DNA from: Quercus robur
Taxonomy: Eukaryota > Streptophyta > Magnoliopsida > Fagales > Fagaceae
DNA: 64,000 nucleotides
Assembly: GCF_932294415.1 (NCBI RefSeq)
Contig: NC_065535.1
Span: forward strand, 82,667,862 to 82,731,861
Direction of reading: 5' to 3'
The position numbers and the translations under genes were made by a program. Shown here in pieces: positions 2,688-61,714 of this stretch. Each line of letters begins with the position of its first letter. Position 1 is the first letter of the stretch. Below the pieces are notes generated by a model. The model ran no database searches. It was not told the DNA's origin and was given only the letters and a program-made list of their open reading frames with translations.

Positions 2688-2696
2688 GTGATGCAG
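2688..2696. repeat. 9-bp target-site duplication, left
   Basis: GTGATGCAG directly precedes the left terminus of the MULE and is repeated without change at 13946-13954. Nine base pairs is the standard duplication length for Mutator-like elements. Confidence 0.93.
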
Positions 2697-2775
2697 GGGA
2701 TTTTTTAGAAAATAACCTTGAAACCGAAACTATTTCATTAGTTAGGAAACGTTTGAAACTAATTTGGAATATAGC
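2697..2775 (+). repeat. Left terminal inverted repeat of the MULE
   Basis: About 80 bp. Blocks shared with the right end (inverted) are the first 20 bases, then CATTAGTTAG, AAACGTTT and AAACTA. Small differences between the ends show some decay. Confidence 0.88.
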
Positions 2776-2826
2776 AACTCGAGTTCAGTATCCACGATTT
2801 CCTGGGTTTATTAGTTTATTATTGCT

Positions 2827-3036
2827 AGAAATCGAGTTAAAAGAACTCGACTTCTAAGGCTGGAAAACGAGTCCAAAGGACTTGGTTTTAAAGCATGGAA
2901 ACCGAGTCCCTTGCACTCGGTTTCAAAGCCTGGAAACCGAGTCCATTGGACTCGATTTCCAGCCTTAGAAGTCGAGTTTAACGAACTCGTTTTTCAGGCT
3001 TAGGAACCGAGTCCTTTGGACTCGATTTCCTTTTAT
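2827..3036. repeat. Left subterminal array of six palindromes, 35-bp period
   Basis: Six imperfect palindromes of the form AAAYCGAGT-N7-ACTCGRTTT. The CGAGT core starts at 2833, 2868, 2903, 2938, 2973 and 3008, an exact 35-bp step. The spacer between units is of the 'ttctaaggctgg' type. The array lies between the TIR and the leader region of the transposase gene. See the finding for the matching array at the other end. Confidence 0.9.
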
Positions 3037-3189
3037 AAACCAGCATCAGTTCCATCAAACAGCAACACTCCCATCCCACAGCAGCTTTCACGTGGGCATC
3101 ACAGTTCCCCCACAGCAGCTTCAGTCCCCAGCCCTCCATGTGTCTGTGGGTCCCAGCTCCAATAAGTTCTCTCTTGCCGTGGGAATAAG

Positions 3190-3445
3190 TTGTATTGTGA
3201 ATATCAGAAACTCAGTCTCTATATGCTCTCTCAACTGTTTCAACTCAGTCTCTATATGCTCTCTCTGTATTGTGAATATAAGTTATCTTAAACACTCTTT
3301 CAACTCTTTCAACTCAGTCTCTATATGCTCTCTCTGTATTGTGAATATAAGTTATCTTTCAACTCTTTCAACTCAGTCTCTATATGCTCTCTCTGTATTG
3401 TGAATATAAGTTCTCTTGAACACTCTTTCAACTCACAGTCTCTAT
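3190..3445 (+). repeat. 60-70 bp tandem repeat in the transposase leader region
   Basis: Four full or partial copies of a unit containing 'caactcagtctctatatgctctc' followed in most copies by 'tgtattgtgaatataagtt'. This pyrimidine-rich tract sits between the left palindrome array and the transposase coding region and probably belongs to its promoter or 5' UTR. Short open frames across it are artefacts of the repeat. Confidence 0.8.
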
Positions 3446-3506
3446 ATTCAACTCACTCACAGAACACTCATCACACAACATTCTCAGGTAATATTTTTAC
3501 AATGTT

Positions 3507-3740
3507 GTGATTATTTTGCTAGATTTTTTTTAAAGAAAAATTTAGAACATATTAGGAAAAGTTTTGTTTTTTCTTATTTGTTAGTGTAAATATTGTGATC
3601 AATTTATTTGTTAGTATATTGTGATTATTTGCTAGGTTTTTTTTAAAGAAAAATTTAGAACATATTAGGAAATGTTTTGTTTTTCTTATTTGTTAGTGTA
3701 AATAGTGTGATTAATTTATTTGTTAGTATATTGTGATTAT
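3507..3740 (+). repeat. 113-bp tandem duplication, followed by related AT-rich copies
   Basis: Two near-identical units containing 'tttaaagaaaaatttagaacatattagg' lie at about 3507-3618 and 3619-3731. Shorter versions of the same AT-rich motif ('attgtgattattgggaatatttagtac') recur at about 4017 and 4491. This is probably intronic or UTR sequence of the element. No gene is visible from 3450 to 5050. Confidence 0.75.
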
Positions 3741-5055
3741 TTGCTATTTTTTTTTAAATTAATGTTATAACACATTTATATAAGATCATAAATCTACTTA
3801 AGAAAAAATATCTATAATGAGTAGTAATTTAATGATTAATTGTTGGGAATATTTAGTAAATAATTGTGATTAAATTACAACATATTGGGGAATTTTTTTT
3901 TGTTAGTGTAAATATTTTGATTAAATTACAACATATTGGGGAATTTTTTTTTTTTTTTTTTTTTTGTTAGTGTGAATATTGTGATTAAATTATTTGCTAA
4001 GTTTTTTTTTAAGAAAGTTAATATTGTGATTATTGGGAATATTTAGTACCAAATATTGTGATTATTATGTGAAAATTTGAGTACTCTAGATATGCAATTT
4101 TTTCCTTTTTATTTTTATTTTTTCATTTAAGAGAATATATAAAACTTTTTTGGCTAAAGGTTCGAAGCTCAAAATCTTATAAATCCAATTATTTTTTATT
4201 TTTTTTAAGGAAGTTGCAACAGTAAAATTGTAACATGAAATGGTCATGACCATGACCATGAATGAATGTGTAAGGATGGTGCAGCCCGAGCACGTATAGT
4301 TTGTGAAAAATTTACAAATATTTGGTGTTATTACCATTTGTAACATTCCAAGTTAGGAAAAAAGGAGCAGACTTTAAAAATAGAAAGAGAGCAAACGCTG
4401 TCCATTTCCATAGCCCTTTAGGATTTTAGGGGATTAGATATTGGCAAAAAGAATGGAGTCATTAGGGTTTTTTTAGAAAATAACTACAAATATTGTGATT
4501 ATTGGGAATATTTAGTACCAAATATTATGATTATTATGTTATTACAACATATGGGAATATTTGTTTTGTTTGTTAGTGTAAATATTGTGATAATATGCTA
4601 AGTTAAAAAAAAAATTAATATTGTGATTAATTATTGGGAATATTTAGTACTAAATATTGTGATCAATTGTTAGGAATATTTAGTACTTTTAGGTCTTTCT
4701 CATGGATATATCATAACATTATGAGTTTGATACCTAAGATAGTAGTCTTTTTACCATAAATTATTTCAAGATATATTTGTTTAAGATTTGTAACAGAGAT
4801 TTCAATGGATAACTGGTTGGTATATAATATTTTTGTTCATCATAACTTATTTGAATGGGTTTTGAAAGTCATGCCCCTAGAATGATTTAGAATTTTTAAA
4901 GAATATGAAATTGGTAATGACTATTTTTGTAAGATTACTAAAGGTGAGTATATGCAAATTTGGTTGAGGTTAGTATTGTTGGCATTTCATACGCAAAGTT
5001 TTGTGATTGATGTTGATTGAGCGTTATAAATTTGTCACTAACACAATTGCACTTG

Positions 5056-6966
5056 ATGATCTATAGGTTGACAATGATCTATATAAATATATACTACGGT
5101 GGACCCCTTAGCAATGCCAACCCTTATGATGGAGCCTCATTTCAAGTTTCGGGTATCCAGTGCTACTATATGATGATACGCCGTAAGCTAAAGACCCTGA
5201 ATGAGCTGAAAGTAAAAATTATGGAAGAGTTGCAAGTGAACCCTGCTTTGCATGACATACATATTACTTTCCGTTCTCCATATGAAGTCCTCAATCAATG
5301 CATTAATTACAGATATATGGCGATAACAGAGGACAAACATGTGAAATTCATGTTTAGTAAGATGGACAAATGGAAACAAGCAGCAGATTTTGAGTTATAT
5401 GTCACTTTGGAGCCTCGTGCAGAAGTCGGCGTAGAAGACGAAATTGTACAAACAACTACATCTCTACAGTTTGCAGTCCTAGATGATCAATGCACCACAT
5501 TGGGAGGCTATACACCCCCTTTTCAAGAGACACCAGTAACAATTGAGAGTGAACCTGGAAATAGATATGAAGATCAATTTTGTACACATCGAGATGAATC
5601 CTCTACAGTTCCAGTAGTTGAAGATGAAGATGAAGACGAAGACTGTTCTAGGGAAGATTGTGAGGATAGAGATGAGTATGAAGAGAGGATTGACGATGGT
5701 GACTTTGACAGGGGTCTTGATGACCATGAAATTACTCACATTCCTCATGTTGATGATATGGCTGAATGTGATGAAGATGATGAGGACGCTAATGCTAGAG
5801 TTCAGCATGTTACAAATACGGCCCTCGTTTATGAACCTCCTGCCTCATCATTTTATGAAAATACTTGGGAAAATATGGTTGATCCTGAAGTTGTTCAGCA
5901 ATCATTTGGTTCTTGGAATGCAGACATGAATTTTGCGAAAGGGTTGATTTTTGCTAATAAAGATGCGGTGAGACGTGCATTAACAATTTACGCCGCAAAG
6001 CATAACAGAAACTTTGTGACTAGTAGGTCGACCACAAGTAGACTGTCTGTGAAATGCAGCGATGAATCATGCATGTGGTACGTTGGGGCAGTTGTGAAGC
6101 CTGAACTCGGACTATGGATGGTCACATCTTATAGGGGTCCTCATAGTTGTATGCCCCTTGCCACGGCCCTTGATGGTAGAATGATGGATTGTAATTTTCT
6201 AGCAGAAGAATTTGTTCCATTGTTGAAAGAGAAACACACGACAACAATTTATCACCTCAGACATTTCATTAAAGGGAAGTATTATGGGCATATTCTTTCT
6301 TACTATAAGATATGGGATGCGAAACAACGAGGTATTGCAAAGATACTTGGGGATTGGGAAGAGTCTTACGAAAGGTTGAAAAAGTTATTGTTTGCATACT
6401 GGGATCAAGAACCTGGCACCCGTTTCTGGTTTCACACCATACCCAGGGACGAGTTCGGTGATACAATATTGCGCTATATATTTTGGGCTTTCGCTCCATG
6501 CATTGCAGGATTCAGACATTGTAAGCCAGTGATCAGTATTGATGGGACCCATTTGTATGGTAAATATCGAGGGGTGTTGTTGATTGCAATGGCCACCGAT
6601 GCCAACAACAAGGTTTTGCCTTTTGCCTTTGCTGTTGTGGACAAAGAGTCAGGGTCTAGTTGGGGGTGGTTTTTAGAACGCCTCAGGAATGCACTGGGGG
6701 ATGTGATAGCAGATAAGGACATCTGTATAATTTCTGACCGACATAAGGGTATTCAAAGTGCAATTGCAAACTGGCCTAGACATGATGATGGACGACAACG
6801 AGTAGTTCACAGATATTGCCTTCGACATGTTGCTAGCAACTTCAACACGCAGTTCAAAATGTTGGCAAAACTTGAGGTTTCAAAGAGGGATCATTTAGCA
6901 AGGACTCAAGCTCCCCTTCATTCAGTACGGGGCTGGACAAACCTGCTCCATGGCAAAAAATTATAA
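5056..6966 (+). pseudogene. MULE transposase, C-terminal part missing
   Basis: Mutator transposase, the nuclear enzyme that would cut and paste the element. Seen, in order: an N-terminal region starting MIYxxxIYYGG (ATG at 5056 or 5074); an acidic linker rich in Asp and Glu (about 5610-5800); a MuDR-type DNA-binding region with VRRALTIYAAKHNRNF and a Cys/His cluster (about 5935-6150); then the MULE catalytic core. The first catalytic Asp is in SIDGTHLYGKY (codon 6541-6543), the second in ISDRHKGI (6736-6738), and the CLRH motif follows. Homology stops near 6858 and an unrelated tail runs to the stop at 6964-6966. The region expected to hold the third acidic residue of the DDE triad and the SWIM zinc finger is absent, so the product should be inactive. 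Confidence 0.88.
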
Positions 6967-7314
6967 CGTGCAGTTCAAAATTTGAAAACTGAAAGCATTA
7001 CATTATCATTTTACCTAAAAGTCAATTCAAATTAATTGTTAAAAACACCATTAATATGGCAGAAAGAGAGATCCTAACAAACCTGTGAAGCATTTTCAGG
7101 TCCAACCTAGAAAGAGTGAGGTGTTTTCTAAGCTAAGTGCTGATCATCACTTAGGGTCAGAAACTCCAATTCTCGAGTGTCCTCCTTTGTTTCTTGATAA
7201 ACCCACATCAAATAATTAGGAATGTTTTGAAAGCATTAAAAGAATTAAATAAATAAAAAAAAAGTGATTTCAGAGAGCGAGAGAGAGAGAGCGAACCTCT
7301 ATGGGATGCTAATC
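6967..7314. other. Junction between the two convergent MULE genes
   Basis: No coding sequence recognised. The 12-mer GCAGTTCAAAAT of the transposase (6849-6860) recurs at 6968-6979, just past the truncated frame, which may mark the rearrangement that removed the transposase C-terminus. A short GA repeat lies at 7274-7292. Confidence 0.5.
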
Positions 7315-10300
7315 CTAATGCATTTTACGCTTATGCTGTCTCGTATAGTGTCTGGTATGTGGGGGAGGGGGTACTGCATCTCCTTCGTGAGGCTCCTTAC
7401 GTTGCTGCAAAGATGAAGTTACAACCAAACAATGGATTACATGAATTCCAATACCAACCATAACAGTAGTTACTCGATATTTATTACATTAAATGATTTG
7501 TCATACCGTGGGGCCAGCGTTGTGTCCTGCTTTGTGACCACCTGTCCCACAAGGAGGTGCTTTCATTGTACGTTTAGGTCGACCTTGTGGGGGTGACTGT
7601 AACCCAACAACCTGCTCATTCTCAACATGCACAGCTGGTTGTTTTGCTTGACTCCCAACAACTGCGGGGGAGGATGGTGTAGCAAATGAAATGTGAGTGC
7701 CCGTACTCATGGGATCTATATGCAGTCTAGGAGTGGGCATGAATGACATGGAGTGACTATGGGGCGGTACATGGTCTATATGACCAATGTTGTATGATGG
7801 GGATTGCGTGTGCATGACAGGAGGGGTTTGATTGAAATCAGGGCCGAGATCAAAGGATGGTGGAGTAAATGAAAGATGAGCAGGATCAAAAAATGTATGT
7901 GAGGTGTGTGAAGGGATCTCGGGGTGAAAAGATGCAGGAGTAGTGGGTAGAGAGATATCTAGGTCAGAAACTGCATGAGCAGTATGTGGAGGGATCTCTA
8001 GGGAAGGAGATGCATGTGGAGGTGGAGGGAACTCTGGGGCAGGAGATGCACGTGGGGGTGGAGGGAGATCTGCCCTACTGACAACCTGATGGGATGCAGC
8101 ACGCTGACCATGGCTATGGCTGGCACGAGTTGAGCTCGTGCTTGGTCGTCCAGTATCTTCTGGCACTTCTGGATTTGCCCCATCGATATCTTCCAACGGA
8201 AGTCGAGCAGTTATACGGTGAAGGCGTTCCACTGTCTTAAGTACAGCTGAAATATGCTTGTACTCAAGACTGCCTACTGTATAAAGTCTCAACAACTTCT
8301 TGTGACTGGCAACCTGAAAGTAAATAAATACAATTAGTACATCATACTGAAGTTCCTGATACGCAACAAAAATTGAAAAGAAAGGTCGAAGCAATTACCA
8401 TAATAATAAGTGAAGCCGAAGTGTGGTCGACGAACCTCTAAGTCACCCTATCGTACCAATCGAAGTATGGATGAGCAGGCGACATATCACCCTCTAGTCG
8501 TGCTCCAAGACATAGAGATCATGCTCGAGTATTCCATACTCGGATATGGCCATCATGTCTGTCCCTCCAATTCACCTCCACCTTCCCCCTCAGGTCTATG
8601 GCATGAAGGGCTTCGTCAGTATCAACATATGGGGGGGGTTCTTGTACCATCCCGAACTGACGAACAACACGGTCCGGTGTATGTTTCTCTACTAGCCAGA
8701 AACATACAAGCGGTACCCTTGCCGTCCATACATCCCTTCCGGCGACACAAAACGCAGGCAGGTGGTCTAATTCAGCTTCATATGGTTGCCACACCACCTA
8801 AAATAGTCAAATCAAAGGGCAGCACATTATGCAATGTTCCATATCTATGAGCTCTTTTACATTTATAAATACAATAATCATAAACAATAGTCATAAACAA
8901 TAGAATAAACACAATGTTGGTACCTGCTTTGGATGCATACAATCTAAAAGCTGACGGTACCGGACCAGACAGATTTCGGCGGGGCTATTCAAGGTGTTCA
9001 CAACCCACACAGTCCTACAATTGCGAAAGAGGGAGTCAATACTTGGAATTGAGAATATGAAGTAATCAACAACAATAAGTGATGGGCAATCGTAAATTTA
9101 ATAGTACATACCACTAAGATTATACTAATAAATGATTATCTAAACATATGATTAGAGGTGGAGCTAAAAATTAATAAGACTTATATTATACATCAATCAT
9201 AACATATGACCTCCGTGGTTGTCAAGGTTAAAATTTTATTTTCTATGTCTAACAATGTGTTTAAAATTATGGATTTATTTCCAATAGAGAGAATCGGTCA
9301 AGGAAGAGACTTACTTAATAGACAATGGAGAAGGTGCAAATGGTGGGCCATATGCACCATCTGGTGGGAGGTCCATCCTTGGGCACAAAAAAGGGAATCT
9401 GACCCATGCCCAATACTGAACTAGCAACAAGGCCCCACCAATCTGACTAGCACCTCTGTCGGTTGCCTTGCATAACTCTCTGTACAGCCATGCAAGGCAA
9501 GCGCTCCCCCAACTGTACTGAGGTGGATTTCGAAGGTTCCTCAGCATCTGCAACCACATCGTATGCACCCTATCACCAGACTTGTCGGCGAAAATTGTGT
9601 CTGCCAGGAGTGCTAGGATATAACACCGTGCATATTGATGCACAACCACCTCTGTTGCATCATCGGGCAACCCTTCGTCAATTTTTTCTAGTAGCTTCTT
9701 TATTTGGATCCTTTGTCCTTTAAGCGTGGTGTCATTAGTAGCAATTCCAAGCAGACTCTGACATTCATCTTTCCATGTCAAGTCAGTTGTTCCAACAATT
9801 GCCTCACCATCGATTGGAATCCCAAAAAGAACCTCCACATCTTGTAATGTGATCGTTGTCTCACCATGTGGCAGGTGGAAGGTGTGGGTTTCAGGCCGCC
9901 ATCGCTCAACGAAGGCCGTGATCAGGTTATGATCAATCTCTCTACCTGGGGTCCTATACAGCCCCTCTAATCCAACTCTCTTCACAATGTCGACGATACG
10001 ATCATCCACCACTATCCGGCGTCGTTTTCGGAACTCGTCATTACGACCGCGGCATTTCAGTGGCCCTGGATCCTGCACATGATAGAATTATGGTGATGAG
10101 ATGCAATATGCCATAACCTTTGTATATATGATTGTAGTTATTGATCCCAAAAAACAAAAATAAAGCAATTATGAAGGGACCTTAAAATATCAACCCCAAA
10201 AAGAAAAAAAAAACCAAAAAAAAAAGCAACAACGGGAGAAAAATAAAAGGATGCAATGCACTTTATACATTTGTCTAGTAATGAAAGGCTTCCCATGCGA

Positions 10301-11219
10301 CCAGCCTATTGCTGCCTCTAAACCAGGAAAAGTCAAAAGGCTTCTTAAAGCTATTTCATTAATTTAAGAAGCTTTAAGTAACTATCTTGGAATTTGGTTG
10401 TATTTCGTTGTCATAGTTGCTGATTTGTGTTTGTTTTCCCTTAAGCTCTGTTGTTGTCCAACCCTTGAATTTACTTAACTAAGTATTTTAATGCAAGTAA
10501 GAAACTCAAGTGAAAAGGGTCCTTAAGGATTTTATTTGATTTATGACAAAAGCTTGTCTTCAATATGATTCATTAAGCTAGGTTTGTTAGACAAGTTGTA
10601 ATTCCAAATGGATTCCTAAATATAAACTTCTATGTTTTGCTTTTGGAACCTAAGGATCATATTTTATGCATGTACCATTGCTTCCAATCTCAAGCACATT
10701 TTTTTTAAAAAAATTTAGCTCTGTTTGACATGATATGGAAAATAAACAACCTAAATAGAGGAAAGTAAAAGAAACTAGAGGCAAAGGCTAGCGTTCTCAA
10801 TAATAACAATAAAAATTACTGCAACAACCACAACCTGAACAACTTCTTGCCAAGCAACAATAAAATTATCACAGGTCACATTGCTTCAAACAAAAATAAC
10901 TCTTATGAACCTAGGATTGCTTTGTTCATGTACACCCACACTAACAGTCAACCAATCTAACTTAACCCAACTAATGCGCATGACCATGCATTGAAAGCTA
11001 GTAATACCATTGACACTTAGAATTTCAGAAATGGGAAGAAAAAAAAATCAACATAATGTAAAAGGATAAGAAGAGAATATTCAGCAGGTGGTCGGTTTTC
11101 ATTTTTACCTTGCCTTCCCAAACAGCGCACGCTCGATGTGTTTTTATAAACCTTAACACTGAATCGTCAGTGGGCTCAGGACCAAACTCATCAGGGAGCT
11201 GAGCAGGAACAGCAGCCAT
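7315..11219 (-). pseudogene. Plant mobile domain (PMD) protein, six coding exons, two in-frame stops
   Basis: Belongs to the family often annotated 'serine/threonine-protein phosphatase 7 long form homolog' (MAIN/MAIL-like PMD, transposon-borne type); the molecular function is not settled. Coding exons fitted with GT/AG borders and consistent phases: 11109-11219, 9315-10072, 8924-9014, 8399-8797, 7507-8313, 7315-7404 (2256 nt, 752 codons). Hallmarks are DPGPLKCRGR, GLEGLYRTPG, RWRPETHTFHLPHGE, TLQDVEVLFGIPIDG, TVWVVNTLNSPAEICLVRYR, a Pro/His-rich low-complexity tail, and PPCGTGGHK near the end. Exon 4 contains TGA at 8519-8521 and TAG at 8438-8440; the first looks like a pair of compensating indels. 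The gene is carried by the MULE and converges on the transposase. Its start is the ATG right behind an acceptor CAG, so the 5' UTR is spliced. Confidence 0.88.
10073..11108 (-). other. Intron 1 of the PMD gene
   Basis: About 1.04 kb, AT-rich. The donor GGCAAG|GTAAAAATG and the acceptor TGTGCAG|GATCCAGGG keep the reading frame (phase 0). No separate gene is seen inside. Confidence 0.75.
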
Positions 11220-13490
11220 ACTGCACGAAGTTTAGGGAGTCAAGAGTAATATAATCACATGTTAAATTGGCAAGGAAAGTGATGAACAAGAAAATGATTC
11301 AGTTTATTTTGACAACAAGCAGATGGTCCTCTTTACTCATAAAATTAATTTGGGCTACAATGAAGTTTTACAAAAGGTGACAAAAAGAATGAAGGAAAAT
11401 CATATCCGCGTTGATTAATTTGGGCTACCCACATAGTTGGCCTTACTATTTTCCCTCCTACCAAATGGACCCTACAGTTACGTGCTACATAAAAGATCTG
11501 AAAAAATTAAAAAGGGGGGAGGAGTTTGTGGGGTGGGTTCTTAAAAGACTTTCTAAAATTGATTGTCTGAACTCACAACAAAACATCCAAACCAGGGTAC
11601 AATGGTGAACAAAGCCTTTACCCTACCACCCCAACACAACTAGGTACGAAAAATCTCATTTCTACACTTCATCCTACCAAACATAATGTAAGAAATCATA
11701 AAATCATTTCAACATTGCAGCATTGCCTGTGTAGATTCATGTGAAAACTATGCAGAAGAAGTGAAGAACCAGATGTTAAAAATAAGACAATATAATGCAA
11801 AATTTAAATACCAGGACAAAAAATAAATAAATAAATAAATAAAAAATCTTCAATAACAGCAATGTATAGTAAAGCAGATGAACAAAGGTAACAAAGCAAA
11901 CATGGCAGCCAAGATTTGAAATGCAGCAACATAGTAGAATCATTACCTGCAATATCACTATGCAACTACCTTCTCTAAAAGCTTATGTTGTGAAGCCTTT
12001 TCAAGCCTATTCCTGCAAGGTATAAAATGCAATTAGCACCTCAAATACGTATATATATGGATGAACATCATTTCTATGCTTATATAAAGAAGGAAGAAAG
12101 GAAAATAAATTTCTAGACAGACATTTTAATATATATGATGAATTTCATATTGTAATATTTAGGAGAGCCTTTTTTTTATAAGAATAATTTTATTGAAAAA
12201 AAGACTACATACAAAAAGCACAAAGCAGCCAAAACAATTACACGAAAAAAAAAAAAAATTATGTTCAATAAGAAAGAGACTATAAATGCAGGAATGGCGT
12301 CACTAGTTGTGAAACAAAGACCATAAAACCAAAAGACCATAAAACAATATAAAAAAAGGAATAAGACATTTAATGAAAGTTAAAGCATCATGATATATGT
12401 GGAACTGCCAAAAATGAAGAAATATGCTGATTTGAGAACTAAAACGATTAATTGGAAAGAGGAGCATTAATGGCAAAGTCCATTTACACTTGTATGAGCA
12501 GTTAATAACGTAATTTTTTAATTTCCAAATGATGAGAAATCTATCAATAGATTCTTTACATATGTACATATGTATAAAGAAAATCCCTGCCCTCTCGTTC
12601 AATGCCTAACAGAAAACCAAGATTAAAGAGATGTTTTTATTCAGGCCTTTTCAATGCCTCCTATATTTCTACAAATACGTTAGACCCAGTTAGATGCTAG
12701 TCATGACAAGAAAAAACTATCAGAGCAATTTATTTGCTAGGAAGGAACATATATCGTGATTATGGCAACTTCACACAAGATGGTGAAGAGTTAAAAGTTC
12801 ATTGAAAAGGCCACATGATAAAAACCCTAGGTTCAAACAGCAATTCAATAAATAAGAAATCATGTCATCCCAGCAATCAATGCTACCTATTTACTGGTAA
12901 GCATAACTTGTGCATTCAAATCACAGAAATAATAAACATTTTATAAAAATAAAAATCCAAAAACCCATTAATAACTCAATTCACATTACACCCAAAAAAT
13001 AAAAAAAATAAAAGAACATATAAGCAAAAATCATACAATGATATAAAAACCCAAAAAGAAGAGATCAAATGAGAATGATACCCTGCGGTTTGTTGGGACG
13101 GCGACGGCGACGGAGACGGAGACGCTGACGGCGAAGGCGACGTTTCTATGACGGCGACGGCGACGGAAAGTGAGAGACCGAAGCGAGATGGAGGGCCGAC
13201 GGCGACGGACAAGGACGGAGCTGAAGAGAGGGAATGAATGCGACGGAACGGCGACGGAGCTGAAGAGAGATCGAGTGCGACGGAACGGCGACGGAGCTGA
13301 AGAGGACTGAGAGTGAGAGAGAGAGACTGAGTTTTTTGAGTGATGCACTGTGAGTGTGGGAGGGAATGAGAGTTTTTTGAACTAAAGAGTATTTTTTGAG
13401 AGAGTACTGTAAAGTGTGGGAGGACTGAGTTTTTTTGAGACTGTTTTGAATGAGAGTTTTTTTGAGAGTTTTGTTGAGAGACACGTGTGG
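11220..13490 (-). other. Spliced leader and promoter region of the PMD gene
   Basis: No protein gene. On the minus strand a CT-rich, then CGTCGC-rich leader (about 13490 to 13085) ends in a plausible donor, CGCAGG|GTATCATT, near 13080; an acceptor CAG sits directly before the ATG at 11219, which would give a leader intron of about 1.9 kb. The tract 13085-13300 is made of GACGGC repeats, with three copies of a larger unit containing 'ggaacggcgacggagctgaagag'. A small AT-rich LINE-tail-like sequence (minus) is at about 12160-12260. Confidence 0.6.
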
Positions 13491-13501
13491 CAAAAGAAAA
13501 T

Positions 13502-13866
13502 AGAAATCAAGTCCAACGGACTTGATTTCTGTGTAGAAAAACCGCTAGTCGGTTTTTATACATACAAACCGAGTCTAATAGACTCGTTTTCTACACACAG
13601 AAATCGAGTCCAATGGACTCGATTTCTATGTGTAAAAACCGAGTGTATTGGACTTGGTTTGTATGCATGGAAATCGAGTTTATTTAACTCGATTTCTATG
13701 TGTAAAAACCAAGTGTATTGGACTCGGTTTGTATGCATAGAAATCGAGTTTATTTAACTCGATTTCTGTACGCCCATTTCCCACGTCGTTCACTGCAAAA
13801 AAGGAAAATCGAGTATACTAAACTCGATTTTACAACCCACAAATCGACTCCAATAAACTCGAATTG
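13502..13866. repeat. Right subterminal array of about ten palindromes, 35-bp period
   Basis: Palindromes of the same AAAYCGAGT-N7-ACTCGRTTT type as at the left end. Cores start at 13508, 13570, 13605, 13640, 13675, 13710, 13745, 13810 and 13845, with a shorter variant (ACCGCTAGTCGGT) near 13543. Seven of the intervals are exactly 35 bp. AAATCGAGT units alternate with AAACCGAGT units, and the opposite arm often changes with them. The spacer differs from that of the left array ('ttctatgtgtaa'). Confidence 0.9.
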
Positions 13867-13945
13867 TTAGAAACCAAAATAGTTTAAAACGTTTGCTAAC
13901 TAATGATATTGTTTAGATTTTATAGTTATTTTCTAAAAAAATCCC
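13867..13945 (-). repeat. Right terminal inverted repeat of the MULE
   Basis: Reverse complement starts GGGATTTTTTTAGAAAATAA and aligns with the left end for about 80 bp, including CATTAGTTAG and AAACGTTT. Confidence 0.88.
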
Positions 13946-13954
13946 GTGATGCAG
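13946..13954. repeat. 9-bp target-site duplication, right
   Basis: GTGATGCAG, identical to 2688-2696, directly after the right MULE terminus. Confidence 0.93.
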
Positions 13955-21002: not shown

Positions 21003-21581
21003 ATATTTTTTGAATTGGTTTTAATAGGGGTAAAAAGGAAAACAAATGGTGTTAATGACATTTGCTCCGTTAAGTAGTTATAGACAAGTGACTGATTTTG
21101 AAAAGGGTACTACGTCTAACTCAGTTAAGAATGTGATTCAAGTCATAAATTACAATTTTTTTTGTGTCCAAAATAACAAATTTTTGACAATTAAAAATAT
21201 TTATTTATTTAATTCCTTTTTTTTCCTCTTTTCAGGTTTAACAAATTTGCAAAAGGTAAAACAATATATTATTACTAGCAAGTTCTCAAGAAAGAGCAGT
21301 TTGGCTTCTCTGTGGCAGTTATGCTTCTCTTCCTTGTAGTATATGGTTTCCCTTCTCTTTGAGAAGGATGGTAGGTTCTCAAGTATAAATTTTTTGCTTG
21401 GAGATTTGTTTTTGCTTCTAAGTGTGTCAGTTTCTATTTTGCTTTCCTTGTTTTACTTCAAACCGTGTCAGTATCTGTTCCTTTGTTTTCAAATTGTGTC
21501 AGTTTGTACTTTGCTTTCTTTGTCTTATTTCAAGTCGTGTCTGTTGTATCTGTCTCTTTGTCAACTTCACTTGTCTTAATG

Positions 21582-23240
21582 ATGGATTTATCAACTCGCT
21601 GGAAGAAGTTATCTTTGTCAGAATCTGAAGAAAATCAGGTTGCACTGAGAATGAATAGGAAGAAGAGAGATTTTATACTGGTAGGGAAATTCCTCACCCG
21701 TAGATCATTAAATATAGAGGCTGTTGCAAAACATTCAAACCTTTATGGTGCACAAAAGGAGGATTCAATGTCACAGTGGGTGGTGAAAACATTCTGTTGT
21801 TTGCTTTTGAATTAGAAGTTGATGCGGAAAGAGTTATTCAAGGTGAACCGTGGGCTTTTGACAAACAATTTGTGGTTTTTGAAAATTTTGAGGGTTTTGC
21901 TCCTATTCACACATTGGGTTTTAAATCAACAGCCTTTTGGGTGCAAATTCATAATTTGCATTTTCCCCGCCAAACTGTTGAAACGGCTTTTAGTATTGGA
22001 AAGACTATTGGACCTATGATCAAACCAAAAGATTTGGGAGAAATGTTGGGGCCGAATTTCATGAGAGTGAGAGTGGTTGTTGATGTCTCAAAGCCTTTAT
22101 GTAGGGGAAGGAAGATCTATTAGGATAAGGATAATGAAGGGTGGGCTGCTTTTATTTTATGTATGAGAAATTGCCGAATATCTGTTACTGGTGTGGGTCT
22201 GTTTCTCATGATAATAAAGACTGTTCTCTCTGGCTGCGAAGTAAGGGTACTTTGACTGTAGCAGAACAGCAATTTGGTCCGTGGATTAGGGCTTCTCTTT
22301 TCAATCAAGCAAAAAAGACTTTTGTTGCAGTTAAAGGATATGATCATGTGAACAGTGGTGCTACAGATGGCGTTGCTGGTGTAATGAACGATTCAGTTAC
22401 TAGTGTTCCGGGATTGAATGAGGGCTTTGAAAACACAATCACCTCTGATTCCCGTGCTACAAATGAGAATAGCTTGGTGCCTTGATGTGTGGAGGGGTTT
22501 ATGGATGATGATGAACACGTTTCCTCCTCCTTGAAGCCATCTGGATCGCTGCAAACAGGGAAGGATGATGCAAGGGCGGTTCCGGATTTTGAGGGGCAGT
22601 TACAACTCTTAGATAGTGCGATTAACTCCTCTCCAAACCTTTCAAAATTGAAAACTGATAATCCTGATGCTGTTTCAGTCGCTGTCCCTATATTTTCTCA
22701 TGCCAAGTCATGCATTAATGTGTCAACAGAAAATCAAGAATTAAATAAGGTGGAAGTCTGATATGATGTGGACGCTACTCCTATTTTTTCTCAAGCCAAG
22801 TCCTGCATTAACGTGTCAACAGCAGCTCAAGGTTTAAATAAGGAGGTAGTCAGATATGATGCGGACTCTTTGGAGGCAATCCGGATTGAGGAATTTAATG
22901 TTGGCCAAACTTCTACTCCTAAAGAAAAAAAGAGCACACGTGGAAGACCTAGGAAATTCACACAGGGGGAATTGTTGAATACTGAGAATACAAATCAGGT
23001 ATATTCGGGAAACTCTTCACAGATAGCCCATACTCCAAAAAAAACATGGAAACGTATTGCTGTTAAGAAAGAAACTTCTGCAGAGAAGGCAGTAGCAGGT
23101 CTTGACATTGGTGAGAAGAGAAAAAGTGCTGATTTAGATAGAAAGGAAGATCATTCTGTTGAAGGGGAAAAAAGGAAAAAGCTTCAGGTATGTCCTACTA
23201 CTCCAACGGCGGAGGTTGCTCAGCAACCCCGCCGAGCAGT
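21582..23240 (+). pseudogene. LINE ORF1 (DUF4283 + zinc knuckle), broken
   Basis: Nucleic-acid-binding protein of the LINE. Seen: a DUF4283-type region (LSLSESEENQ ... GEPWAFDKQFVVFENFEG ... FWVQIHNLHFP), then the knuckle CYWCGSVSHDNKDC (C-x2-C-x4-H-x4-C) at about 22180-22221, then a Lys-rich tail. The frame shifts near 21780 and is interrupted by stops at about 22121, 22483 and 22759. The tail contains a 90-bp internal duplication: PIFSHAKSCINVST and PIFSQAKSCINVST at about 22687 and 22780. Confidence 0.82.
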
Positions 23241-25560
23241 AGTAGGTCTTGACATTATTGTCTTTCTTATGGAGACAAAGCTGAAAAAAGATTGGCTAGA
23301 TTTGATTAAGGAAAAATGTAAAATGAAAAATTGTTTTGTTGTTCCTAGTATTGGAAGCAGTGGTGGTCTTATTTTGTTATGGAAAGAAGAGTTGAAGGTA
23401 GATATTAAGACTTTTTCTCAAAATCATATTGATGCATAGGTGAATGGTGGGGAAGTTGGTTGGTGGCATTTTACGGGTTTCTATGGTCATCCGGATACGG
23501 CTAAAAGGCATGAATCTTGGGCAAAATTGAAGCATTTAAAACAAAAGTCTTCTTTACCATGGCTGGTCATTGGTGATTTTAATGAGATTATGGGTCTCTT
23601 GGAGAAGGAAGGTGAAAGTATCCGTCCAAGAAAACAAATGGCAGACTTTGTATCTACTATTGATCATTGTGGGTTGTGTGATCTAGGTTTCATTGGATCT
23701 AAATTCAGTTGGCTATATCAAACAACTAGTGGGGTTCAAATCCGAGAAAGATTGGATAGGGCTTTGGCTACATTGGAGTGGAGGTCTCTTTATCCAACAA
23801 GTAAGCTTCACCATTTATCCTCTTCGGTTTCGGATCATTCTCCACTATCACTTCATTTGTTTCAACAACGGAAGAAAAGGAGACACAAATTTTTTTTTAG
23901 GTTTGAATCAATGTGGTTGAAGGACTTGAGATGTGAAAAGGTTGTAAAGGATGCATGGGAAAGTGGTCAATTGATAGAATCAGATTGGGTTCTTCACAAT
24001 TGTTTGGAGAGTTAGGGAGCTTCAAACCAAATTAGAATGGTTAGAGATGCAGCCCACATCCACGGAAGTAGTGGAAGCATTGAGACATACTCGAATTGAA
24101 TTGAATTGTTGGTTGGATAGAGAGGATGACATGTGGAGACAGCGATCAAGGATTGATTGGTTCCAAAATGGTGATAGGAATACAGCTTTCTTTCATGCCA
24201 AGGCTTCGGCTAGACATAGAAAGAATTTAATGGAGGGTTTGCTAGATAATGATGGGGTATGGCAGATTGAAGAAGATAAAATGGAGGAGATAGCAATTGG
24301 GTACTTCGGGGATCTTTTCTCTACTAGTAATTTGGTGGATTTTTCTGATTTGCTCTTGGTTGTGCAACCTAAGGTGACTCATGCAATGAATGAATGGCTG
24401 GTTCGGCCTTTTGTGGAGTGTGAAGTGAATGTAGCTTTGAAGCAAATGTATCCACTTAAGGCATTGGGTCCTGATGGGATGCCTCCTCTGTTTTTTCAAC
24501 ACTTTTGGAGCACTTGTGGCGCGGTCGTCACCAAAATGGTACTTGATTTTCTGAACTTTGGTATTTCACCACCCAATTTTAATGAAACTCACATTACTCT
24601 TGTCCCAAAAATTAAAGAGCCAAAGAAGATAACAAATTATAGGCCTATTAGCTTATGCAATGCTGTTTATAAAATTGCTTCAAAGGCTATTGCAAATAGG
24701 TTGAAAAAGTTTTTACCTTCAATTATTAGTCATACACAAAGTGCTTTTGTCCATGGAAGATTGATTACTGATAATGTGTTGGTGGCTTTTGAAACCATGC
24801 ATCATATTAGCCAAAAAAAAGGGGGGGGGGGGGGAAAGGTTGGGGAAATGACTCTTAAATTAGACATGAGTAAGGCTTATGATAGGGTAGAGTGGGTTTG
24901 GCTTGAAAAAGTTATGGAGAAATTGGGTTTTGTTGACTGGATTAGGGATTTGATCATGAGATGTGTTTCTACGGTTACTTATTCAATTAAAATTAATGGG
25001 ACTCCGATAGGACATATTATTCCATCTAAGGGAATCTGTCAAGGAGACCCTTTGTCACCTTACCTCTTCCTCTTATGTGCAGAAGGTTTGTCTGTTTTGA
25101 TTCAATCAGCAGTGGATAAGGGTCAAATGGAGGGTGTTAAAATTTGTAGGGGTGGTCCTAGATTGTCTCATTTGTTTTTTGCAGATGATAGCTTGATTTT
25201 TTTGCAAGGCAACGTTAAAGGAGTGTGATGAACTACAACGATTGCTTGCTTTGTATGAGAAAGCTTCCGGTCAAAGTTTAAATCGTGCAAAAACATCTTT
25301 GTTTTTCAATAGCAACACTTCAAGGGAAGTTCAAGAGGAGATAAAAAATCGGTTTGGTGCCCAAATAATTAAGCTACATGAGAAGTATCTTGGCCTACCT
25401 TCTTTGGTGGGGAAAAATAAAAGACTTACCTTCAATGCCATCAAGGAGAAATTGGGGAAAGTGTTGGCGGGTTGGAAAGAAAAATTGTTGTCCAAAGTGG
25501 GAAAAGAAGTTTTGATCAAAGCCGTGGCTCAAGCAATTTCGGCTCAAGCAAATTTTATTT
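23241..25560 (+). pseudogene. LINE ORF2 (endonuclease + reverse transcriptase), broken
   Basis: Endonuclease blocks METKL, IGDFNE and VSDHSP are present, but the N-terminal WNCRG block is absent: ORF1-like sequence runs straight into IVFLMETKL. The reverse transcriptase has LGPDGMPPLFFQHFW, NYRPISLCNAVYK, AFVHGRLITDN, LDMSKAYDRVEW, GICQGDPLSPYLF and the catalytic FADDS at about 25179. A TAG interrupts the endonuclease at 23437-23439 (probably a former Trp codon); frameshifts occur near 24013 and 25225. A G13 run at about 24821-24834 encodes an odd Gly stretch inside the reverse transcriptase. The frame is lost near 25540. Confidence 0.88.
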
Positions 25561-54523: not shown

Positions 54524-55564
54524 TCAATCTTGTGTTTCAGTCTTCTTTCCAGTTCCTTCCCCTTCTTTCTCCTCCAACAATCTGCCGGCCTCCTCATCAG
54601 CCTGTTGCACCTTTTTCTGCGCCTCGGCCGCCTTAAGAGCCTGCAACTTGGAATGATTGTAATACGCCACACCCAGAAATGCCAATCCATACCCAAACAA
54701 ATTAATAGGGGTCACAGTGTCCTTAATCACCGACCAAGAGAAAGCGATCAACAGCCAGTCCTTAACAACACCGGCCACATTCATTGTCAAAGCCGAAGTC
54801 TTCCCCACCAGCAAAAACACAGCCAAATTCAGAGCAAAAGCGCAGAGCGAATTTGTCCCGAAGATAACAAAATCGAGATGGAAACTCGAGGTGTCTCTCA
54901 ACAAAGGGTACTCCATAACCACCCAAGGGAAACACAAGAAAACAAGACAACAAGGCGCAACATAGTAAAGCGAAGTGATGGGGTTCAAACTAATACCTCT
55001 GGAATTCAACAAAATCTGGATCATCACCAAACGGGTGGCCTCAAAAGCCACAGCCAACAGCTGCAACATGACCCCAAAAGAATCGAACTTTGCCTCCCCA
55101 TAAGCCGCGATTGCGACACCGACACTGATCGAGAGCATGTTGACCATGGTGTCGGATTTGAAAGAGTCCTTTTTGAACAAAACCCCGATGGAGTAAACCG
55201 CGACGGGCATGAGAGCCTTGAGCATTTGGATGAAGGAGACGGAGAGGTAGATGTAGGTGGAGTTGGAGAACCAGAGGGAAAGGGAGTAGAGAGCTCCAAT
55301 GGGTACCACAGATTTGAGGTAAAGGTCACGAGTCATGGTGGATGGGAGTTCCACGACCTTGAAAACTTTGACGAGAAGGTAGGCGAGGAAGGAACAGAAG
55401 GACATGTGGATCATGGTGAGTGAGATCGGGAATGGCCAGTTGTAGAGCTTGCGGTCGAGGATGTACTTGTTGTACACGATGACGGAGAAGCTGAGGAAGA
55501 TCCAGATTGCTACGTAGGTGTAGGAGAGAAGGACCTTTTTCACAACACTTTCGGAAAGTGCCAT
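54524..55564 (-). CDS. Nucleotide-sugar/phosphate translocator, KT group (UDP-arabinofuranose transporter-like)
   Basis: Golgi/ER antiporter of the drug/metabolite transporter superfamily, TPT domain. Single exon, 346 residues, the usual length. Seen: an N-terminal [20 protein letters not shown] helix, [49 protein letters not shown], the conserved [26 protein letters not shown], the KT motif in [18 protein letters not shown] and a cytosolic Lys/Glu-rich tail with [12 protein letters not shown]. About ten membrane helices. The sequence is closest in my judgement to the Arabidopsis UAfT group (At5g11230, At5g25400, At2g25520, At4g32390), which moves UDP-arabinofuranose into the Golgi for wall polymers. 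The exact substrate is an inference. The CDS is GC-richer than its surroundings, as expected for a conserved intronless gene. Confidence 0.93.
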
Positions 55565-61236: not shown

Positions 61237-61379
61237 GGGCACATTTGGTAAACTGTAACAGTAATTACATAAAAATATGAATAAAAATATGTGTGGGAGG
61301 GTTTCATAGTTTTAGCCCCAATTAGCAAGTATAGTCCGCTTTAGGCTCAATATGTTCGTGACCTTCACGGTTTTGTTCA

Positions 61380-61422
61380 ATCCCACATCTAGGAGAGACG
61401 CCTCCCACATGTGCCTTATAAG
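61380..61422 (+). promoter_or_regulatory. USE-like and TATA module A
   Basis: ATCCCACATCT (61380-61390) and TTATAAG (61416-61422), 25 bp apart. The last USE base differs from the plant snRNA consensus RTCCCACATCG. Confidence 0.45.
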
Positions 61423-61551
61423 CCTGAGCCCAACACACATGTGTACCATTACTACACTTTAATGTGGGAGGGTTTCATAGTCTCAGCCCCCAATTAGCAG
61501 GTATTGTCCGCTTTAGACTCGATTTGTTCATAGCCTTCACGGTTTTGCTCA

Positions 61552-61594
61552 ATCCCACATCGGGGAGAGACGCCCCCCACATGTGCCTTATAAG
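61552..61594 (+). promoter_or_regulatory. USE and TATA module B
   Basis: ATCCCACATCG (61552-61562) fits the plant snRNA upstream sequence element RTCCCACATCG exactly. TTATAAG follows at 61588-61594 after 25 bp. Confidence 0.5.
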
Positions 61595-61714
61595 CCTGAG
61601 TCCAAGACACATGTGTACCACTACTACACCCGCGAAGGCCACGAACAAATCGAGCATAAAGCGGATAATACCTGCTAATTGGGGGTAGTGGTACACATGT
61701 GTCTTAGGCTCAGG

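Follow-up and report, generated by a model that had tools for sequence, protein, structure and literature searches.

Phased palindrome arrays at both ends of an oak MULE that carries a plant mobile domain gene

Results

Overview

A MULE in a 64-kb window of Quercus robur DNA (i.e., the whole stretch that was analysed) carries near each of its ends an array of the palindrome AAAYCGAGT-N7-ACTCGRTTT in which exact 35-bp steps recur, and this dyad is the conserved part of the arrays. We tentatively interpret the arrays as clustered dyad-symmetric sites for a DNA-binding protein that the element encodes, most likely a dimer of its MuDR-type transposase, an interpretation to which we give slightly less than an even chance.

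Structure of the element

The element spans positions 2697-13945 between paired TIRs and is flanked by a 9-bp target-site duplication, GTGATGCAG, the right copy of which (13946..13954) is identical to the left copy (2688..2696) at 9/9 positions. On the + strand of the window, GTGATGCAG was found at 2688 and 13946 only. Target-site duplications of MULEs are typically about 9 bp (8-11). The left TIR (2697..2785, + strand) is about 89 bp in length and shares about 82% identity with the right TIR (13856..13945, - strand), the inner edge of which is a half-site at 13857-13865.

A stop-to-stop ORF of 649 aa (5017..6966, + strand) matched the MULE transposase family PF10551 (E 1.8e-17) and the MuDR DNA-binding domain PF03108 (E 4.9e-07), while a SWIM domain was not found in this ORF by Pfam. 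The ORF stops at 6966, shortly past the PF10551 match, and the gene may have introns; a later frame (7257-7460) gave no Pfam match and the remainder up to 7650 was assessed by eye only. A whole transposase does not appear to be encoded by the examined copy, which is probably decayed. A PMD (plant mobile domain) gene is indicated on the - strand by a main coding piece at 9311..10087 (PF10536, E 6.4e-52, profile positions 5-194 of 347) and a second piece at 8519..8797 (E 3e-15, profile positions 240-321 of 347), where a stop closes the frame. Located between the TIRs on the strand opposite to the transposase, the PMD gene is not part of a PMD-transposase fusion. Pfam matches on six of the 41 listed frames were limited to MULE, MuDR, PMD and sub-threshold matches. 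The TIRs, the 9-bp duplication, the transposase gene and the convergent PMD gene on the other strand identify the element as the MULE described in an earlier note on this DNA, and the arrays lie, as that note held, upstream of both genes. The element has further tandem repeats in its leader and introns.

Number, position and phase of the palindromes

With up to three mismatches allowed, 16 matches to the motif were found in the window as opposed to 0.07 expected, and the maximum among 100 shuffled controls was two. All 16 were between 2776 and 13865, i.e., within the MULE, and an ordinary satellite was rejected on these grounds for the 64-kb window. In the left array (2829..3028), six 25-bp palindromes separated by 10-bp linkers start at 2829, 2864, 2899, 2934, 2969 and 3004, in exact 35-bp steps. 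The right array (13504..13865) consists of nine palindromes, which start at 13504, 13566, 13601, 13636, 13671, 13706, 13741, 13806 and 13841, and a truncated unit at 13539 (13504 + 35) that reads AAACCG..CGGTTT and is 8 bp shorter. Six of the right units (13566-13765) are in exact 35-bp phase and the step from 13806 to 13841 is also 35 bp. The 62-bp gap between 13504 and 13566 amounts to 35 + 27, since the truncated unit sits at 13539; phase is also broken between 13741 and 13806 (65 bp) and, on the left, between 2776 and 2829 (53 bp). Thus, the phasing first noted for the six left units and for five steps on the right is confirmed as exact, and the "about ten" right-hand units reported at that time are the nine matches and the truncated unit.

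The outermost left unit (2776..2800) is degenerate, with three mismatches, and straddles the edge of the left TIR. The arrays had been placed just inside the TIRs, which needs correction: alignment of the TIRs reaches 2785 and 13856, so that each TIR takes in one half of a degenerate unit. These half-sites, at the inner edge of both TIRs, begin at bases 80 (left) and 81 (right) from the ends of the element. The units to which they belong have three (left) and two (right) mismatches, and only about 10 bases of each are within the TIR; beyond them, towards the interior of the element, there are six units on the left and nine, including the truncated one, on the right.

A looser scan (centres of 4-11 bases, up to four mismatches) returned seven sites beyond the MULE, the best of which was at 54870 with three mismatches and a 5-base centre, as well as weak sites at 2590 (outside the MULE) and 12961; a hit at 13705 was an offset reading of a counted unit. 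Lone half-sites with no more than one mismatch were common (56 in the window, 23 of them outside the arrays). The anatomy and array figures come from a single copy of the element.

Arms, linkers and symmetry

Identity between the left and right arrays was 87% for the palindrome arms, comparable to that within the left (84%) and right (87%) arrays, as opposed to 39% for the linkers and 45% for the N7 centres, with 26% expected from composition. Thus, the dyad is the part that has been kept, in agreement with the earlier description of like palindromes and unlike linkers at the two ends. The further claim that T/C changes in one arm are matched by A/G changes in the other applied, at the variable arm position, to eight of nine right units but to only two of six left units; arms of the left array match at 7-9 of 9 positions, a weaker symmetry than that of the right array. 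Over 15 units (i.e., with 2776 and the truncated 13539 omitted), 140 of 165 arm cells matched, compared with 129.7 (sd 3.75) when right arms were redealt; 140 matches were reached in 106 of 20,000 redealings, a frequency that is no true probability since the units are tandem relatives.

Left linkers 4-5 are inverted relative to linkers 1-3, linker 1 and the reverse-complemented linker 4 agreeing at 10/10 positions, and right linker r1 matches r2 and r4 inverted at 8/10. Units at the turning points of linker orientation are near-perfect palindromes. Both features, and the other tandem repeats in the leader and introns, would fit a functionless minisatellite, in which slippage together with strand switching at the palindrome cores amplified a palindromic unit and hairpin-templated repair equalised its arms. 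Neutral local amplification should, however, homogenise arms and linkers together, whereas the arms are as alike across 10.5 kb as within an array and the linkers are not, and we regard this origin as distinctly unlikely.

Folding of the arrays

When folded as RNA, the left array gave a z-score of -14.0 and the right array (13500-13770) a z-score of -20.3 relative to dinucleotide shuffles. The fold of the left array was -114.7 kcal/mol as opposed to -54.1 kcal/mol for the summed hairpins of lone units, and that of the six phased right units was -107.3 as opposed to -57.6 kcal/mol. Hairpin potential, which had been proposed earlier, is therefore real by computed folding, and the inversion of some linkers lets each array form one long hairpin as well. 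At each end, all 200 trials in which the linker letters were shuffled gave a less stable fold. Values equally low were nonetheless obtained with randomly oriented linkers (103/200 left, 65/200 right) and with permuted units (75/200 left, 41/200 right). Because these controls were as stable as the real arrays, there is no sign of selection on the long hairpin itself, and selection for one long hairpin was discarded as unsupported.

The strong z-scores and the excess of long-range pairing over lone unit hairpins would suit transcribed hairpins that supply small RNAs and so silence the element, but the real hairpin was no better than these controls. In addition, a TATAAA at 3034..3039 (+ strand), which starts 6 bp past the last left unit and is a candidate promoter of the transposase gene, has the left array upstream of it, so that initiation there would leave this array untranscribed. 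We therefore consider a small-RNA role highly improbable. This TATAAA is the sole + strand copy between 2697 and 3600, among 75 on that strand across the window. Its position adjoining the left array, and the presence of CACGTG close to each array (3089 and 13482), might instead reflect host transcription-factor sites acting as an enhancer for both genes of the element. CACGTG occurs nine times in the 64 kb, however, so its pairing with the arrays is weak, and an enhancer would not require half-sites at the TIR edges; we know of no plant transcription factor whose motif fits the dyad, and find an enhancer quite improbable.

Possible roles of the arrays

According to the preferred reading, a transposase dimer would bind the dyads, the site at each TIR edge would be recognised as the end of the element, and the inner repeats would act as secondary sites through which transposase is loaded next to each end. 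Since the arrays are upstream of two convergent genes, the bound protein might also regulate transcription of the element. Binding, the identity of the protein as transposase and the effect are all things that we infer. Consistent with binding are arms that are as alike between ends as within arrays while linkers are not, the confinement of all 16 sites to the element and the half-sites in both TIRs, and consistent with transposase is the MuDR DNA-binding domain that the element encodes. The multiple transposase sites of Galileo and the subterminal repeats of Muta1 and Muta5, described below, serve as precedents for this reading. The earlier proposal of sites for a dimeric protein is favoured by the contrast of kept arms with free linkers and by the half-site at both TIR edges, binding itself being predicted. 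Degenerate TIR-edge units, frequent lone half-sites and weaker symmetry on the left weigh against this reading, as does the apparent lack of a whole transposase in the examined copy. Symmetry and phase are no proof of binding, because tandem duplication alone spaces the units of an array evenly and hairpin-templated repair can homogenise palindromes.

Recognition of the dyads at both promoters by the PMD protein or a recruited partner, which would keep the ends of the element unmethylated in the manner of VANC on VANDAL tandem motifs, is a bolder alternative that we consider unlikely. The PMD gene lies inside the MULE and has an array upstream, and Ikeda et al. speculate on an anti-silencing role for MULE-captured PMDs (PMC5418596). 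In addition, the arrays are CpG-rich (observed/expected 1.13 and 1.58, compared with 0.60 for the element and 0.47 for the window), and 25 of the 30 half-site CpGs of 15 units are retained. This retention is explained by constraint alone, however, because the CpG is inside the conserved motif. Nor did the arrays contain the MAIL1-associated or VANC motifs. The motif CATGCAGTTT, which is associated with the PMD protein MAIL1, occurs once in the element (reverse complement, 7968) but not within the arrays, and matches to the VANC21 and VANC6 motifs (three and four, respectively, in 64 kb) were at chance level with none in the element; arrays composed of any of these motifs were accordingly rejected. 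An improbable idea is that plant MULEs evolved sequence-specific anti-silencing a second time, independently, with a captured PMD acting through phased 35-bp arrays at both promoters; if true, this would give PMD its first known class of DNA target.

In the portions of the literature cited, the action of PMD proteins and any interaction of their complex with chromatin are described as open (PMC9899485) and the reason for MULE capture of PMDs as speculation (PMC5418596). The dyad is short and regular, lies next to a PMD gene and occurs within the window, at the threshold used, only in the element; it offers a concrete DNA probe for both PMD protein and MULE transposase. If transposase binds the dyad, clustered transposase sites would gain a plant example, and if PMD binds it, the open PMD question would become directly testable.

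Comparison with known systems

The comparisons that follow apply to the passages cited of each source. Of 12 mosquito MULE families with long TIRs, 10 are reported to have subterminal tandem repeats, and in Muta1 and Muta5 the TIR contains a 12-bp or 15-bp repeat nine times (PMC5225508). Like the oak MULE, these Aedes aegypti elements have an 8-9-bp target-site duplication and, at either end, subterminal tandem repeats. Their repeats are common to both ends because they are part of the TIR, whereas the 35-bp palindromic units of oak lie mostly on the gene side of the TIR and have linkers that differ between the two ends; as described there, no protein is shown to bind the Muta1 repeats. The DNA-binding domain of Galileo transposase gives a footprint at about 70 bp from the end, and additional sites that it binds lie in tandem repeats of the TIR (PMC3688188). 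Galileo, however, is not a MULE, its transposase is P-element-related with a THAP domain, and its sites were defined by footprint and EMSA rather than, as in oak, from sequence alone.

VANDAL MULEs carry tandem-repeated protein-binding motifs (PMC5735166, PMC10398659), but those of VANDAL21 (YAGTATTAY) and VANDAL6 (AGTTGT(C/A)C) are absent from the oak MULE; VANDALs have degenerated TIRs, and the extra gene of the oak element is PMD. The MULEs of Ikeda et al. likewise have a plant mobile domain aboard, although the fusions described there, in Amborella and several grasses, join PMD-C members to MULE transposases, whereas the oak element has PMD as a gene of its own on the other strand (PMC5418596). 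MuDR and Abermu type II share with the oak MULE a transposase and an oppositely oriented extra gene between TIRs (PMC9168764). The main text of that source mentions neither tandem, palindromic or subterminal repeats nor plant mobile domain or PMD, and thus reports neither arrays nor PMD. The earlier statement that no MULE so arranged was known is only partly right: it is too broad for subterminal or tandem arrays as such (PMC5225508, PMC5735166, PMC10398659), while palindromic units like these beside a PMD gene were found in none of the matches listed. Relevant passages on tandem or palindromic repeats were not found in PMC13359780, PMC6446971 and PMC2528002. Literature matches to half-site strings included some plant papers, but by title no plant-repeat paper among the matches listed; those in PMC8585034 were three passages within NAC-gene sequences.

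Matches in other sequence collections

The PMD piece had no match in viral contigs and no relative in PDB, where the transposase had one match at E 0.86. In the other sequence collections, the transposase gave one pattern match and no relative by tblastn. A stricter two-unit pattern had no match in genome contigs or viral contigs. The one-unit pattern was found in two viral contigs and a 19-base two-unit pattern in one Verrucomicrobiota contig, matches that are at about the chance level estimated from pattern and collection size.

Palindrome arrays in the element

The element, an 11,249-bp MULE at 2697-13945, was flanked by a perfect 9-bp target duplication (GTGATGCAG, 2688-2696 and 13946-13954) and bounded by terminal inverted repeats (TIRs) of about 89 bp with about 82% identity between left and right. 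Within it, a transposase open frame on the + strand (5017-6966; Pfam PF10551 MULE transposase, E 1.8e-17, and PF03108 MuDR DNA-binding, E 4.9e-07) was convergent with a plant mobile domain (PMD) gene on the - strand, recognised in two pieces (10087-9311 and 8797-8519; PF10536, E 6.4e-52 and 3e-15, respectively). MuDR, as outlined in an excerpt of PMC9168764, likewise carries two genes in opposite orientation.

A scan of the 64-kb window for the 25-bp palindromic unit AAAYCGAGT-N7-ACTCGRTTT (dyad) found 16 units at three or fewer mismatches versus 0.07 expected, and all 16 were within the element. Thus, the two arrays phased at 35 bp that the earlier note had described are real, organised and far beyond chance. 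The left array (2829-3028) advanced in five steps of exactly 35 bp, while the right array (13504-13865) contained six units in exact 35-bp phase and a last pair also 35 bp apart; a truncated unit at 13539 accounted for one gap and, when included, brought the right-hand array to the approximately ten units reported. Most units were just inside the TIRs, as had been claimed, but at each end the outermost, degenerate unit was not, one half of it being the inner TIR edge (half-sites starting at base 80 from the left end and base 81 from the right). Half-sites, the 9-bp arms, would be weak evidence on their own since lone copies at one or no mismatch were fairly common (56 in the window, 23 of them outside the arrays); the left edge unit, however, matched the entire dyad at 3 mismatches (0.07 such matches expected per window). 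In a looser scan (variable centre, up to 4 mismatches), weak sites also appeared elsewhere, the best at 54870.

Conservation, symmetry and growth of the arrays

Pairwise comparison of six left with nine right units (54 pairs; the units at 2776 and 13539 excluded) gave identities of 87% for arms, 45% for the N7 centre and 39% for the flanking 10-bp linkers, as opposed to 26% expected from composition alone. In the left array (15 pairs) the corresponding values were 84%, 46% and 52%, and in the right (36 pairs) 87%, 51% and 45%. Choosing the better strand for each left-by-right pair gave the same picture (87%, 51% and 44%). Arms were therefore equally alike between and within arrays whereas linkers were more alike within one end than between ends, in agreement with the earlier description of a shared palindrome with unlike linkers. 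This contrast amounts to an internal footprint and provides the best evidence that the dyad, rather than the repeat as such, is kept.

Arm symmetry within units was also noted, with 140 of 165 cells matching versus 129.7 after permutation (140 reached in 106 of 20,000 permutations); omission of the near-duplicate units 13706 and 13741 gave 122 of 143 versus 112.9 (122 reached in 129 of 20,000). The matched T/C and A/G changes reported between arms were borne out at the variable position in the right array (8/9 units, strong) but hardly in the left (2/6, weak). Half-site CpGs were intact in 25 of 30 cases in 15 units, and the five losses, although small in number, were all CG to CA in half-site orientation and none CG to TG.

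In the left array, linkers 1-3 had one orientation and linkers 4-5 the opposite, linker 4 being the exact reverse complement of linker 1. Similarly, right linker r1 was inverted relative to r2 and r4 (8/10 positions), while the palindromy of r3 and r5 was too strong for safe orientation. The turning points, units 2934 and 13601, were both near-perfect palindromes. These features suggest that the arrays grew by duplication and strand switching at palindrome cores, with the long hairpin formed by each array a probable by-product. Folding as one long hairpin gave z scores of -14.3 (DNA) and -14.0 (RNA) for the left array and -20.3 (RNA) for the right. Since randomly oriented linkers folded equally well (103/200 left, 65/200 right), the hairpin itself bore no sign of selection.

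Possible function of the arrays

The location of both arrays upstream of genes, noted previously, was upheld. The last left unit ended at 3028, and the only + strand TATAAA between 2697 and 3600 started at 3034; the left array therefore has the position typical of promoter-proximal elements. For the PMD gene, encoded on the opposite strand, the upstream array was the right one. Beside each array, towards its gene, was a CACGTG (G-box, at 3089 and 13482); the whole window has nine.

In this single element of a single window, the arrays most likely represent clusters of protein-binding sites belonging to a MULE. Binding by the element's own transposase is placed first among readings, with a probability somewhat short of even, because the dyad layout resembles the sites of Galileo, a non-MULE transposon with a P-element-related transposase, and the subterminal repeats of mosquito MULEs. 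As described in part of PMC3688188, the footprint of the Galileo DNA-binding domain lies approximately 70 bp in from the end, and the domain also binds additional sites in the repeats. Subterminal tandem repeats comparable to the oak arrays are described for mosquito MULEs in an excerpt of PMC5225508. The dyads at both ends, of which one reaches the TIR edge with a half and the others lie deeper in the element, would be putative clustered transposase sites, and such binding would likely have a second role in regulating the element's genes.

The chief rival is that the arrays may be anti-silencing targets read by the PMD protein, in analogy to VANC, the anti-silencing proteins of VANDAL MULEs (excerpts of PMC5735166, PMC10398659), and in line with speculation on captured PMDs in part of PMC5418596. 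However, contact of PMD proteins with DNA is not established in the literature as excerpted from PMC9899485, and a motif search found the known VANC and MAIL1-associated motifs absent from the arrays. The arrays are distinctive relative to known transposon ends in their palindromic 35-bp unit, their placement upstream of both genes and the company of PMD. Palindromic units beside a PMD gene were not found among the literature matches listed, a scope that excluded Repbase reports and most subscription journals.

State of the copy and other features

The transposase frame terminated at 6966, soon after the MULE domain match; no continuation was seen by eye in frames up to 7650, and one later frame gave no Pfam match. 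PMD piece 8797-8519 (-) ended in a stop, followed 26 codons further in the same frame by a second. Read by eye, the stretch between these stops appears to be still PMD; it had no Pfam match, so that the first stop may alternatively mark an exon end. The pieces searched did not contain PMD profile positions 195-239. The copy is probably not autonomous.

Short repeats were also present: a 59-69-bp tandem repeat at 3226-3447, downstream of the left array in the presumed transposase-gene leader, and GACGGC-rich short tandem repeats at 13097-13142 and 13214-13304 in the presumed PMD-gene leader. Between the former leader and the transposase frame, a 26-bp copy of the element terminus (4465-4490, +) matched the right TIR end at 24/26 positions, and its score against the left TIR was reached by 0 of 300 random stretches. 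Elsewhere in the window, a candidate non-LTR retrotransposon at 21375-25228 contained several separate open frames preceding a reverse transcriptase (PF00078, E 3.2e-27, within 23978-25225), and a 172-bp unit occurred as two tandem copies with 89% matches at 61292-61629.
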